This document shows, piece by piece, positions 3,204 through 17,385 of a stretch of DNA of 55,380 nt (positions within the stretch are counted from its first letter, which is position 1; every line of letters begins with the position of its first letter). The DNA comes from a virus. Where the stretch lies: positions 1 through 55,380 of IMG/VR virus record IMGVR_UViG_3300051212_000924. One strand, given 5' to 3'. Below the pieces are notes generated by a model that searched no databases, was not told the origin of the DNA, and saw nothing but the letters and a program-made list of their open reading frames with translations. The position numbers and the translations under genes were made by a program.

Positions 3204-3923
3204 ATGCCTTTACCAACAATTGCTACGCCAACATATGAGTTGGAAATTCCTTCTACAGGAAAGAAAATTAGATATCGTCCTTTTCTAGTCAAAGAAGAAA
3301 AAATCTTAATCCTGGCACTTGAAAGTGAGGATACTAAACAGATTGCAAATGCAGTCAAAGAAGTCATCGCAAATTGTATTCAAACAAAAGGTGTTAAAGT
3401 AGAACAACTTTCCACTTTTGATATTGAATATATTTTCTTAAATGTTAGAGGAAAGTCAGTCGGTGAAGATGTCGAGGTTCTAATTACTTGCCCAGATGAT
3501 GGTAGAACTCAAGTTCCTGCGTTAATTAATCTTGACGAGATTAAAGTTCAGATTAGTCCAGAACATACTAGAGATATTAAACTGGATGACAATCTAACTC
3601 TCCGAATGAAGTATCCATCAATGAATGAGTTTGTCAAGACAAACTTTGCTGTGTCTGAAGAGTTGACTCTTGATGATACTTTTAATATGATTGCTTCTTG
3701 TATTGAACAAGTTTACAGTGAAGAAGAATCTTGGGCAGCAGCAGATTGCACTCCAAAAGAAATGTCACAGTTTCTAGAGCAATTAAGTTCAAAACAATTC
3801 AAAGAAATTGAAAAATTCTTTGAAACAATGCCTAAGTTATCTCATACAATTCAGGTGACAAATTCGAACACCGGTGTCACAAGCGAAGTTGTTTTGGAGG
3901 GTCTATCGGCTTTTTTCGGGTAA
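3204..3923 (+). CDS. 26: Baseplate hub/tail assembly protein gp26
   Basis: 239 residues; T4 gp26 is 208. The N-terminus 'MPLPTIATPTYELEIPSTGK' followed by 'YRPFLVKEEKILILALES' is typical of the T4-baseplate gp26 family. A 'VRGKSVGEDVEVLITCP' segment follows. The last codons read Ala-Phe-Phe-Gly-stop across GCT TTT TTC GGG TAA, a canonical -1 slippery site. gp26 may therefore act like lambda gpG, with a -1 product equivalent to gpGT. The next ORF lies in the -1 frame and the tape-measure gene follows at once. gp26 family assignment is firm; the chaperone role is inferred. Confidence 0.85.
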   Translation: MPLPTIATPTYELEIPSTGKKIRYRPFLVKEEKILILALESEDTKQIANAVKEVIANCIQTKGVKVEQLSTFDIEYIFLNVRGKSVGEDVEVLITCPDDGRTQVPALINLDEIKVQISPEHTRDIKLDDNLTLRMKYPSMNEFVKTNFAVSEELTLDDTFNMIASCIEQVYSEEESWAAADCTPKEMSQFLEQLSSKQFKEIEKFFETMPKLSHTIQVTNSNTGVTSEVVLEGLSAFFG

Positions 3924-3937
3924 GTATGGCTCATACT
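3911..3937 (+). promoter_or_regulatory. Programmed -1 ribosomal frameshift site (T TTT TTC plus hairpin)
   Basis: The heptamer TTTTTTC at 3911-3917 is in the correct zero-frame phase (X XXY YYZ: GCT-TTT-TTC). After a -1 slip the next codons are CGG GTA AGT ATG GCT, exactly in frame with the ORF that starts at 3926. The zero frame stops at 3921-3923. Five bases after the heptamer a hairpin can form: AGTATG (3923-3928), loop GCT, CATACT (3932-3937). This is the arrangement of tail-assembly chaperone frameshifts in many tailed phages. Confidence 0.75.
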
Positions 3938-4099
3938 AGTATTGAGTCATACTATAAAGTCAATTTTGCCTTGATGCAGCATCATAAATATTCATTGACA
4001 GAACTAGAAAATATGATACCGTGGGAGAGAGAAATTTACTTATCTCTACTTCAACAGTATATTGAAGAAGAAAACTTAAAGCAGAGAATAAATGGCTGA
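3926..4099 (+). CDS. Small tail-assembly ORF, probable -1 frameshift extension of gp26
   Basis: 57 residues if started at ATG 3926. The sequence holds 'FALMQHHKYSLTELENMIPW' and 'REIYLSLLQQYIEEE'. The Met/His start, the 'LTELENMIPWE' helix and the position directly before the tape measure recall the T half of lambda-type G/GT chaperones. It overlaps the tape-measure start by 8 bases. It may be made alone, as the C-terminal part of a gp26 fusion of about 299 residues through the slip at 3911-3917, or both. No good ribosome binding site precedes ATG 3926, which favours the fusion. Confidence 0.75.
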   Translation: MAHTSIESYYKVNFALMQHHKYSLTELENMIPWEREIYLSLLQQYIEEENLKQRING

Positions 4100-5420
4100 A
4101 ATGGCATCGCCAATTGAAGGAGGTATTCAAGCTGCCAAAGAAGTTGGCGGTGGTGATGCTGCCTTGTATCAAAGAGTTCAAGCAACTGAATCAAGTATTA
4201 TATCACTGTCTTCAAGTTTGAACGGCATCTCTCAGCAGATGTCGCAATTTAGTTTATCTTTGAATAGTATATCAGCAAATATTGTTACCGAAACAAATCT
4301 AGAAAGACAGAAAGAAAGACAAGAACAGCAGCAAGAATTTTTACTAGCGCAGCAGCAGATTCGAGAAGGCAAAGAGAGTGCTATTGAGAGAAAAATTCAA
4401 GCATCTTTATCTGCTCCTGTACAGAAAATATCAGCAAAAGCAGAGAATACATTAGGAAGACTCAGGCAAGTTTTAACTGGAGTTTTATTTGGTTGGTTAG
4501 CGGTTTCTACCGTTGGATTGATTAAAAAGTATTCGGTAGATGTTCCAAATAAACTGACTTCTGTTCGTGATACTATTTTAAAAGGACTTAATACAGCAGG
4601 TCAATTTCTATCAGGTATTAGAAGTTCTCTTACGAATGTTTTCAGTACAATATCTGCTATTTCAAGTAGAGTTGCTCAGCACGTAAACGGCAGATGGTTC
4701 ATGGGACCAATTCAAAATTTAGTTGATGCTGTTAAGAATTCTTTTAAAACATTTTTTAATATTGGAAAAGGTGCTGATAAAAAAGATGGTACTGGTGGAA
4801 GTCCATCTGCACCTACCAGCACTACCGGTACAGGTGGTTCAACTGATAATATGACTCCTGCTGGGGGTGAAACATCAGCGACAGAAGGGCAATCAACTAA
4901 CGCTGCTAGCCCTGCGATGAGTGGTCTTTCTAGTTTATTAATGTCGCAAAGTGCTATGCAAAATCTTGGTATGATGCCAACTGAAACCAGTGCATCTCAA
5001 CCAACCACTCCTATGGTTAATCCACTACAGATAAACCAAGAACCAGCGGCGGGTGGTGAAGAAGTTCATAGTGAGCAACAAGAGAGCGCACCAGCAATGT
5101 ACGGTGAGTTTTCAATCAGTCCTTTACAAGATGTTACAGGTCTTGATATGAGTTCAACTCCTGTTGGAACGCAACAAACTCCGACCACCATCGCTCAAGT
5201 TACGCCAGTTGCCCAGCAAGATGTATCTCAAAAAGTTGGTGCTTTACCTGAACCAAAAGCAAATGTTGTAGTTGCGCCAGCACCAGCACAGCAACAAACA
5301 CAACAACCTGGATATTCACAAGGAAAAGCACCTGCTTCTGATATTCCTGCCATACCTTCTAGTAATCCAAATAATTTTTATGCGATGTATTCAAAGACTG
5401 TTTATAATGTGATAGGATAG
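4092..5420 (+). CDS. Tape-measure-like tail protein (gp29-like)
   Basis: 442 residues. Residues ~25-115 are a long coiled coil rich in Gln, Ser and Glu. A hydrophobic block ~130-155 contains 'LGRLRQVLTGVLFGWLAVST'. The C-terminal half is low-complexity (Thr, Pro, Gln, Ala). This layout, plus the position right after the chaperone-like frameshift ORF, suits a tape measure/hub core protein (T4 gp29 has about 590 residues). The hydrophobic block is repeated in the next gene, which suggests shared ancestry or two proteins that pack together. Confidence 0.6.
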   Translation: MAEMASPIEGGIQAAKEVGGGDAALYQRVQATESSIISLSSSLNGISQQMSQFSLSLNSISANIVTETNLERQKERQEQQQEFLLAQQQIREGKESAIERKIQASLSAPVQKISAKAENTLGRLRQVLTGVLFGWLAVSTVGLIKKYSVDVPNKLTSVRDTILKGLNTAGQFLSGIRSSLTNVFSTISAISSRVAQHVNGRWFMGPIQNLVDAVKNSFKTFFNIGKGADKKDGTGGSPSAPTSTTGTGGSTDNMTPAGGETSATEGQSTNAASPAMSGLSSLLMSQSAMQNLGMMPTETSASQPTTPMVNPLQINQEPAAGGEEVHSEQQESAPAMYGEFSISPLQDVTGLDMSSTPVGTQQTPTTIAQVTPVAQQDVSQKVGALPEPKANVVVAPAPAQQQTQQPGYSQGKAPASDIPAIPSSNPNNFYAMYSKTVYNVIG

Positions 5421-5421
5421 T

Positions 5422-7338
5422 ATGGCAATTAAATCTTCTATTAATACTGCTAATATTAATAGGTCTGTAGGTTCTTTTAGGCAGAGTTTAAATAATGCTC
5501 AAAAGTCTGCAGGTAGAGTTAATTCATCTATTTTACAAAGAAATAAATTCAAAAAGGAATCAATTTCGAAAAAAAATTCTCTTTTTCTTCAAAGAAGGTC
5601 GGCAGTTAGAAGAAAAGAATCTCAAGATGCTTCGGAGGCAACAACAGCACTTGGCATAAGAAGAGCACCATCTAGAATTACTAGTGGAAGCACCAGAAGC
5701 TTCTTTGGAAGAATGATGGATATTAGCGGTGCATTGATGGCAGGATGGTTAGTTACAAACTTACCAAATATCATTAATCTAGCAGAAGCAACAAGTCGTA
5801 GAGCGGTTGAAGTCGCTAGAGTTTTGGGAGGAGCAATTAATAGTTTTACTCAAATTTTAAATACTTTATTCACTGGTCTAACAACTATTGGTGCAAGTTT
5901 ATTAAGGGGTGATATAGCAAGTATTCCTAATAAACTTTCTAAGTCTGTGGAAGATATGCAGACTTCTTTTACAAGAATGTTCCTTCAATTAGAAGATGCT
6001 TATAAGGTTTTAACTCAACCACTAGATTTTTCCAAAGATATTGAAGAACTAAGAGAAAGACTTGGATTGGAAGTTCCTGGTGAAGAACCTGGACCTGGTG
6101 GAGAAAGATCTCCAGGAGGTGGTGGTCAATTGCAACCTATTCATAGGCAAGCACTGGATATTATCGCAAAACCAGAAAGTGGTGGAAACTATAATTCAAT
6201 GAATCAAGGCACAGACTCTAATGGGAAAATTGTTGGATCTGGCGATTCTAATAAAATAATTGGTAAAGCACTCACAAGCATGACAATTGGTGAGGTGATG
6301 GAAAGACAAGATGAAAGGAAATATCCAAGAAATGCTAGACCAGATAGGGGAATTCATGCGGCAGGAAAATATCAAATTGTTGGTAATACTTTACCGTCAG
6401 CAATGAAAGGTGCAGGTTTAAGTCCAAGTGATATGTTTAGTCCCGAAAATCAAGACTTATTAGGTCTTGCAGTTTTACGTGATAAAGGCATAGGTGCTTG
6501 GACAGTTGGCGGTTCAAAGTATTCTGCTAAAGATAGAGCGATTATTGAGCAGGCAAGAAGAACTCCACTTGGAGCACCAACTGCAACAGTTCAACCAGGA
6601 ACAAGATTTAGAAAAGATCAAGATATTACAAGTATTGTAGGAGCAAAAGGAACTCCATCAGTTATTGTAACAAGCCTTCGTGGAAACAGAGTCAGAAATG
6701 GTAGAAGTCAATGGCATGGTGGAATTGATATTGCCACAGATAATGGAGTTTATATCGCTTTAAGAGCAAATTGTGTGGTTTTATATGCTGGTGACAGAGG
6801 TGGATATGGATTACTGGTTGATGTTTGGGTTGAATCGTATGGTATAAAATTGAGAATGGCACACTGTAGTTCTATTTTACCTAACTGTAAAGCAGGTGCT
6901 GTCATTCCTGCAGGTGTATCATTTGCTAGAGTTGGAAGCACAGGTGAATCTACAGGTCCACATATTCACTTTGAAACAGATACCAATAAAAATGGAACTA
7001 TGAATGGAGGTAGAGATTATGGCGGAAATACTGACCCTAGCCCTTATGTTTCTCTTCTTTTACTTACATCAAGGCAAAGTAATGGATTTAAAGGTGTAAC
7101 TTCTACTACTGGAAAACCACTAGCACAAACCACTCCAACTGGAACTGGAGGGAGTCCAGAAGTTCTTCAATCTTTAACACCAGAAAGAAAGGGGCAAACA
7201 GTTATCGTTACTCAACCACAAACACAAGCAGCACCACCTCCACCATCTGCTCCAGCATCGATGATGCCAATGGTTGTTGGTGATTCATTAAATAGTATTC
7301 ATAATAGCATTTTACTTAATCAATTAGCGTACACATAA
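5422..7338 (+). CDS. Tape-measure-like protein fused to lytic transglycosylase-like and M23 peptidase domains
   Basis: 638 residues, starting one base after the previous stop. Residues 1-90 are basic (Arg/Lys/Ser). Residues ~100-180 contain 'FGRMMDISGALMAGWLVTNL' and further hydrophobic stretches like those in the preceding gene. Residues ~240-385 look like a transglycosylase/lysozyme-like fold ('KPESGGNYNSMNQG', 'HAAGKYQIVGNTL'). Residues ~415-535 are an M23 zinc endopeptidase: H432-G-G-I-D436 and H514-I-H516 supply the usual HxxxD and HxH ligands. It would cut peptidoglycan glycan and peptide bonds during injection, replacing the lysozyme domain of T4 gp5. Domain limits are estimates. Confidence 0.8.
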   Translation: MAIKSSINTANINRSVGSFRQSLNNAQKSAGRVNSSILQRNKFKKESISKKNSLFLQRRSAVRRKESQDASEATTALGIRRAPSRITSGSTRSFFGRMMDISGALMAGWLVTNLPNIINLAEATSRRAVEVARVLGGAINSFTQILNTLFTGLTTIGASLLRGDIASIPNKLSKSVEDMQTSFTRMFLQLEDAYKVLTQPLDFSKDIEELRERLGLEVPGEEPGPGGERSPGGGGQLQPIHRQALDIIAKPESGGNYNSMNQGTDSNGKIVGSGDSNKIIGKALTSMTIGEVMERQDERKYPRNARPDRGIHAAGKYQIVGNTLPSAMKGAGLSPSDMFSPENQDLLGLAVLRDKGIGAWTVGGSKYSAKDRAIIEQARRTPLGAPTATVQPGTRFRKDQDITSIVGAKGTPSVIVTSLRGNRVRNGRSQWHGGIDIATDNGVYIALRANCVVLYAGDRGGYGLLVDVWVESYGIKLRMAHCSSILPNCKAGAVIPAGVSFARVGSTGESTGPHIHFETDTNKNGTMNGGRDYGGNTDPSPYVSLLLLTSRQSNGFKGVTSTTGKPLAQTTPTGTGGSPEVLQSLTPERKGQTVIVTQPQTQAAPPPPSAPASMMPMVVGDSLNSIHNSILLNQLAYT

Positions 7339-16415: not shown

Positions 16416-16856
16416 ATGGCACAGAAAAAAATTTCTAAAACGAGAAAACAAATACATGCAGAATATGAAAACAACGAGCTTGCTTGTTTAAAACAAAATC
16501 AAACTAGAGCAAGATCTCTTTCTGTTGGAACGTGTACTGGTGGATTGATTGAAGTCAACATGAGAGGAGACTTTTCCAACCTTTGGTATATTTTACATCC
16601 TGTTGAAGCAGTTGAAGTTATGGAGCAACTTGCTGCTGCGTGTGGTCTACAAATTGCTATGCGTCCTAAACAAGATTTTAGTACTTGGAGATCTTGGGAT
16701 ACTACAATCCCAGGCGCTTCTCATTGGTTAGGAGCAGCGCCCTGGCAACTTGATGACGAACAAAGAGAAAAACTAACGGAGATTAGAGAAAAGAATATAA
16801 AAGCAATAGAAGAAAGTAAAGATAAACTACTCAACGAATCAAAAGATGAATCTTGA
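16416..16856 (+). CDS. Conserved hypothetical protein
   Basis: 146 residues. Basic N-terminus (MAQKKISKTRKQIHAEYE), a central beta-like part ('GGLIEVNMRGDFSNLWYILH') and a Lys/Glu-rich helical tail. 'WRSWDTTIPGASHWLGAAPW' is a distinctive Trp-rich loop. It ends 11 bases inside the next gene. I do not recognise a family; its place in the fibre region suggests a virion or fibre-assembly role. Confidence 0.6.
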   Translation: MAQKKISKTRKQIHAEYENNELACLKQNQTRARSLSVGTCTGGLIEVNMRGDFSNLWYILHPVEAVEVMEQLAAACGLQIAMRPKQDFSTWRSWDTTIPGASHWLGAAPWQLDDEQREKLTEIREKNIKAIEESKDKLLNESKDES

Positions 16857-17385
16857 TGAACTTTATGTTTTAGTTGATACTCGTCAAAAAATAATCATTG
16901 ATAAGATACAAAAACTTCCAGAAAATTGGAAAAATATTGCTGGTCTTTCTGGTTTAACTGACGAACAACTTAGTGACTTCAAGTGGGCAGGATATGAACA
17001 TTATGGGTGGATAAAACTGAATTCACCTTTTCTAAATGATTATCAATCTAGTCCAGAAAATTTAGAGTTAAATAAAAATACTTTTAAGAAGTTAGTTTCT
17101 AATTTCAAAAAAGAAAAAATATTAGATGGAATTGAGTATCAAGGAATAAAATTTACTGCTGATGAAAAAACTAGATATTCACTTTTTATTAAAAAATTGA
17201 GCAATCTAGATACAGTCAACTATAAATCTTTTAACAAATACTATACCTTTACTAAAGAACAAATTATTGAAATCTGTGATATAATTGAGTTATATGTGCA
17301 GAAATGCTTTGACTGGGAAATGGAAGTTTATATGCAAATAGAAAATTGTAACAGTTTAAGTGATTTTTTAAACGTTAATTTATGA
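16846..17385 (+). CDS. Tail fibre assembly-like protein (DUF4376-type C-terminus)
   Basis: 179 residues. The start 'MNLDELYVLVDTRQKIIIDK' and 'LSDFKWAGYEHYGW' match the opening of many phage fibre-assembly proteins. The C-terminal half 'GIEYQGIKFTADEKTRYSLF' followed by 'YYTFTKEQIIEICDIIELYV' fits the DUF4376 pattern. It overlaps the sulfotransferase start by four bases. Probably helps fold or attach a fibre; inferred from family resemblance. Confidence 0.6.
   Translation: MNLDELYVLVDTRQKIIIDKIQKLPENWKNIAGLSGLTDEQLSDFKWAGYEHYGWIKLNSPFLNDYQSSPENLELNKNTFKKLVSNFKKEKILDGIEYQGIKFTADEKTRYSLFIKKLSNLDTVNYKSFNKYYTFTKEQIIEICDIIELYVQKCFDWEMEVYMQIENCNSLSDFLNVNL

Follow-up and report, generated by a model that had tools for sequence, protein, structure and literature searches.

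Does translation of gp26 in a T4-like cyanophage always end at the gp26 stop codon, or do some ribosomes shift frame and continue into the short ORF that follows? We addressed this question in a 55,380-nt cyanophage fragment (IMG/VR record IMGVR_UViG_3300051212_000924, positions 1 to 55,380; hereafter the window), where the initial annotation had proposed a −1 frameshift joining the two in the manner of phage lambda G/GT. Comparative sequence evidence strongly supports that proposal, and we consider it very likely that programmed −1 ribosomal slippage yields a short gp26 form and a long gp26-gp51 form of a tail assembly chaperone, as with lambda G/GT.

The gp26 locus and its slippery heptamer

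The following features were assigned in the region.

3204..3923, plus strand: gp26 homologue, 239 aa, short form of the predicted tail assembly chaperone (PF12322, E 8.7e-77; phrog_150, E 3e-83)
3911..3917, plus strand: slippery heptamer T_TTT_TTC, 0-frame codons TTT TTC, in phase
3921..3923, plus strand: TAA stop codon of gp26 in the 0-frame, one codon past the heptamer, read from the sequence
3926..4099, plus strand: gp51 homologue in the −1 frame, 57 aa from its ATG, C-terminal domain of the predicted fusion (phrog_634, E 9.7e-27)
4092..5420, plus strand: next ORF, 442 aa, candidate tape measure of the initial annotation
5422..7338, plus strand: second downstream ORF, 638 aa, with an M23 peptidase domain (Peptidase_M23, E 2.5e-13), alternative tape-measure candidate

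The window contains both the PF12322 domain and the phrog_634 C-terminal domain of the T4 gp26/gp51 family, and the short ORF also matches the C-terminal end of the gp26 family phrog_150 (E 1.9e-7). Upstream, gp26 is preceded by a tail tube-type protein (PF23849, phrog_45). When gp26 was modelled with AlphaFold (pLDDT 86), the higher-probability hits of the model included the HK97 tail assembly chaperone 2ob9 (probability 0.51, E 1.5), a hint of an HK97-type chaperone fold that is only suggestive; a search of solved structures by sequence gave nothing useful. The ORF at 4092-5420, which the initial annotation took for the tape measure, had no tape-measure match in PHROG and did not resemble T4-type gp29 in profile comparison; it was rejected as a tape measure of the gp29 type. 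No clear tape-measure match was obtained for the ORF at 5422-7338 either. These two ORFs share N-terminal similarity (BLASTP E 2e-6, with weak profile support) and may be tandem relatives.

The 3′ end of gp26 reads GAG GGT CTA TCG GCT TTT TTC GGG TAA in the 0-frame, with GGG as the sole codon between the heptamer and the stop, so that the heptamer lies in the phase and position originally described. Reading after a −1 slip would proceed as TTT TTT CGG GTA AGT ATG GCT CAT.., and the −1 frame stays open over a stretch that begins 85 nt ahead of the gp26 stop, runs across it and ends at 4099; a slip thus enters the ORF with its first ATG at 3926, again as annotated. The predicted fusion comprises 238 gp26 residues, an R-V-S linker and the 57 residues from ATG 3926, giving 298 aa; the fusion ORF of the initial annotation is therefore present, and its length of about 299 residues is corrected by one. 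As a check on chance, all 80 window ORFs with 100 aa or more were scanned for in-phase X_XXY_YYZ heptamers within their last 30 nt. Such heptamers were found in five; T_TTT_TTC occurred there in gp26 only, and in phase anywhere just twice across all 80 ORFs. The remaining in-phase heptamers near ORF ends look like chance overlaps. One such site, at 17363-17375, carries in-phase TTTTTTA and TTTAAAC close to the 3′ end of ORF 16846-17385. A 279-aa ORF in the −1 frame overlaps this ORF, and the arrangement is probably a chance overlap of two separate genes.

Conservation was analysed in a close set of 81 loci, namely the window and 80 IMG/VR relatives with 67-78% identical gp26, representing 77 distinct gp26 genes. 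T TTT TTC was in phase in all 81, and, among 98 conserved degenerate codon columns in the 77 distinct genes, the two heptamer Phe columns were the only codon-invariant ones: TTT TTC was used in 77/77 genes, compared with a mixture of TTT and TTC at each of the ten other conserved Phe columns. The 77 genes share ancestry and are not 77 independent trials, and the argument lies in the contrast with the other columns. Retention of the heptamer with suppressed synonymous change, which the initial annotation had suggested looking for in relatives, was thereby observed. Among more distant IMG/VR loci, TTTTTTC or TTTTTTT was in phase in 42/42. One or other of these heptamers was also in phase, 0-2 codons before the stop, in P-SSM2, S-WAM1, MA01, S-RIM12, Milchi, Aeh1, XZ1 (Schizotequatrovirus), Atu_ph04, Phosso, Marzo, a Variovorax phage, OLIVR5, phiM12, syn9 and Aeromonas phage 65; in phiM9 the heptamer is TTTTTTG. 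In most of the distant phages carrying the heptamer the −1 frame encodes a gp51-type domain, and in a few (e.g. Phosso and Marzo) it encodes a short domain without a PHROG match to gp51.

The TTTTTTC/TTTTTTT pattern was absent from T4-type phages, which have two genes, from Ackermannviridae and from Vibrio phage K364. In the two Ackermannviridae loci (L090, 3718-3910; L147, 2220-2440), a gp51-like −1 ORF follows gp26 with no canonical heptamer; they share the motif [AG]TT TTC AT[TC] stop, and have no ATG, GTG or TTG near the beginning of the −1 ORF. In K364 (L086, 3700-3905), which has no slippery heptamer, the ATG of the downstream ORF overlaps the gp26 stop, an arrangement that suggests translational coupling in place of frameshifting.

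Candidate stimulatory elements

Two elements flanking the heptamer were identified as probable stimulators.

3896..3901, plus strand: GGAGGG, internal Shine-Dalgarno-like element, probable upstream stimulator, from anti-SD pairing and Glu codon bias
3923..3953, plus strand: 11-pair hairpin with arms 3923-3933 and 3943-3953, probable downstream stimulator, from the window fold and pair counts over loci

The upstream element had been missed by the initial annotation. Its GAGG core ends 10 nt upstream of the heptamer, and the octamer ending 9 nt before the heptamer has a mean anti-SD pairing energy of −8.2 kcal/mol (background 0.1, sd 2.1). The Glu codon at the element is GAG in 67/77 genes, whereas GAA predominates at 9/9 other conserved Glu columns. 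Judging by this position and codon bias, the GAGG element probably stimulates slippage.

Downstream, the 11-pair hairpin starts 5 nt past the heptamer and is the minimum-energy structure from that start in the window; its 5′ arm covers the short-ORF ATG. The 60 nt from this point have more stable folds than shuffled sequences (mean z −2.4, 68 loci). In the alignment, 92.5% of cells were paired, compared with 25-46% for slid controls, and 0/500 shuffles matched either the observed pairing percentage or the covariation score. Compensatory changes affected two pairs, one of them in 29 sequences and the second in a single sequence. The pair at alignment columns 41/55 is U-A in 36 sequences, G-C in 24 and A-U in 4, with the synonymous third base of an Ala codon tracking the opposite Glu/Ala/Val codon. 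On the tree, this pair requires at least 14 state changes, unpaired states counted; the independent comparisons all point in the same direction, and at 2 on well-supported branches and 9 on all branches they are too few for significance. RNAalifold alone, applied to the 80-nt alignment, returned five central pairs only, weakly (−1.7 kcal/mol), and the support for the 11-pair hairpin consists of the single-sequence folds and the pair counts. L028-type sequences retain 5/11 pairs; farther afield, a hairpin of comparable strength is present in P-SSM2 and several MA01 relatives and absent from many other groups. From the folds and pairing pattern, the hairpin probably stimulates slippage. The six-pair hairpin originally described (AGTATG/CATACT, 3923-3928 / 3932-3937) does exist 5 nt past the heptamer, but its full set of pairs is present in just 8/81 loci, the window included; we regard it as a weaker alternative to the conserved, better supported 11-pair structure.

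Initiation at the short ORF and other alternatives

The short ORF could instead be expressed by termination-reinitiation, with ribosomes restarting just past the gp26 stop to make a separate 57-aa gp51 and no fusion. An ATG does stand 2 nt past the stop in 76/81 close loci, with TTG in one, and gp51 is annotated as its own gene in many records. In L028, L029, L039 and L058, however, CTC stands in place of the ATG. The short ORF likewise begins without ATG, GTG or TTG in L101, L112, L113, the Aeh1 relatives and Aeromonas phage 65, lineages that keep the heptamer and in which the −1 frame is still open. No anti-SD pairing was found before the short-ORF ATG in the close loci that have one, and the 11-pair hairpin pairs over it. 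Reinitiation would also leave the codon-level invariance of TTT TTC unexplained. Among the close relatives, none had lost the heptamer while the short ORF kept its start and a ribosome binding site, a pattern that the initial annotation had named as evidence against its proposal. We therefore rejected independent initiation as the sole route to the short ORF, given the missing Shine-Dalgarno sequence and the loss of the start in several lineages, and consider reinitiation without a fusion improbable; separate initiation in addition to frameshifting is possible.

In public records L082, L092, L143, L085 and L144, gp51 is unannotated or annotated from an internal start, because it apparently lacks a start codon of its own. 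Annotation from an internal ATG in some cyanophage records drops conserved residues.

A second alternative is transcriptional slippage, in which RNA polymerase would gain or lose bases while copying the T6 run, and the edited mRNA would then encode the fusion. The conserved core is indeed a run of T, extended to TTTTTTT in some groups, but six T's are short for polymerase slippage. The codon phase, the Shine-Dalgarno-like element some 10 nt away and the hairpin downstream are in keeping with slippage by the ribosome, and we consider transcriptional slippage very improbable. Practically negligible is the chance that the heptamer merely reflects a Phe-Phe conserved at the protein level at the gp26 C-terminus (encoded as TTC TTT, which is not slippery, in gp26 of the T4-type phage FP43) beside an unrelated short ORF, given the uniform TTT TTC against mixed codons at ten other Phe columns and the fact that the short ORF is homologous to the C-terminal part of T4 gp51, a protein that is otherwise gp26-like.

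Programmed −1 slippage is the reading that we retain, the locus having an in-phase, conserved heptamer under synonymous constraint, an open −1 frame with a conserved product, and candidate stimulators. From the sequence we infer that slippage occurs, at some rate, and that the products serve as chaperones in the window's phage. The majority of ribosomes would terminate at 3921 to give gp26, the short form, and a fraction would slip from TTT TTC to TTT TTT and continue to the 298-residue gp26-gp51 fusion, the long form, with probable help from GAGG pairing to 16S rRNA and from the downstream hairpin. If the products act as lambda gpG and gpGT do, the tape-measure protein would be coated by the short form, and tail-tube subunits would be recruited through the C-terminal domain of the long form.

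Relation to T4 gp26 and gp51 and to known frameshifts

Almost all of T4 gp51 (249 aa) matches phrog_150, and its C-terminal part matches phrog_634; in the Mosigvirus counterpart, residues 1-201 match PF12322. T4-type gp26 has PF12322 only, and is paralogous to gp51 (BLASTP E 2e-10 in a single comparison). T4-type gp51 thus consists of a gp26-like domain and a C-terminal domain, and in T4-type phages the short form and the long form therefore have a gene each, the long one being equivalent, in a single frame, to the predicted fusion. In T4 (L145, 1501-2924), Aeromonas phage 25 (L146, 850-2253) and FP43 (L089, 2192-3618), gp26 and gp51 are adjacent and divergent. The pair looks like a duplication on sequence comparison. 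Its domains are homologous to gp26 and the −1 ORF of the window; the difference is that T4-type phages have two divergently transcribed genes and no slippery site, whereas the window has one gene and a −1 ORF. T4 gp26 and gp51 are listed as hub assembly chaperones, gp51 being required yet absent from the final particle (review PMC3004832).

The sequence evidence indicates lambda-type production of two chaperone forms in most T4-superfamily groups sampled, with the T4-type, having two genes, as the exception. On this evidence gp26 and gp51, for which the usual annotation is baseplate hub protein, belong to a single expression unit, which accounts for the missing or truncated gp51 in some cyanophage annotations. 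One close counterpart is the G/GT frameshift of phage lambda, reportedly described by Levin et al. 1993 and Xu et al. 2004. As predicted for the window, ribosomes slip by −1 late in the short-form gene and yield a minor fused form, and in both cases the gene stands just before further tail genes. The lambda heptamer is G_GGA_AAG and differs from that of the window; the likeness drawn here is one of arrangement, and the window has only candidates for the tape measure.

In the E. coli dnaX −1 frameshift, an internal Shine-Dalgarno sequence lies about 10 nt upstream of an A_AAA_AAG heptamer that is followed by a hairpin. The same three-part layout of Shine-Dalgarno-like element, heptamer and hairpin is found in the window, although dnaX is a cellular gene with A_AAA_AAG and a shortened product, whereas the fusion in the window is an extended product. 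With somewhat less than even confidence, we propose that a dnaX-like cassette of internal Shine-Dalgarno, T6C heptamer and covarying hairpin drives the chaperone frameshift in this cyanophage clade, that the hairpin also buries the short-ORF ATG so that gp51 would be made mainly as the fusion, and that T4 proper uses two separate paralogous genes instead.

A −1 frameshift in a tail assembly chaperone gene has also been reported for phage Adele (Vandenendeviridae and Andersonviridae), with the motif given as GTTTTT (PMC12846349). The Adele-type site likewise is T-rich and terminal in the short-form gene, with the tape measure downstream in those phages, but it belongs to other phage families, and its motif differs from T_TTT_TTC. 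For T4-like phages themselves, the initial annotation held that such a frameshift is not normally described; however, PMC12846349 and PMC10885494 cite Vladimirov, Gautam & Davidson 2022 (Virology 566:9-15) for it. As represented in these two papers, that work covers short and long forms of the tail assembly chaperones of T4-like phages, poly-T slip sites in the short-form genes, and the two-gene alternative of the T4-type, with one short and one long fused gene. No description of the GAGG-heptamer-hairpin cassette was found in the literature searched, in which Vladimirov et al. 2022 is represented through the two citing papers. The short and long forms and the poly-T slip site credited to that study are as in the window; what may be added to it are the Shine-Dalgarno-like element, the covarying hairpin and a heptamer that does not vary among environmental cyanophages. 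Since the general idea was, according to the citing papers, published for T4-like phages in 2022, the window adds one more case to a known kind, and some of its anatomical detail may be new.
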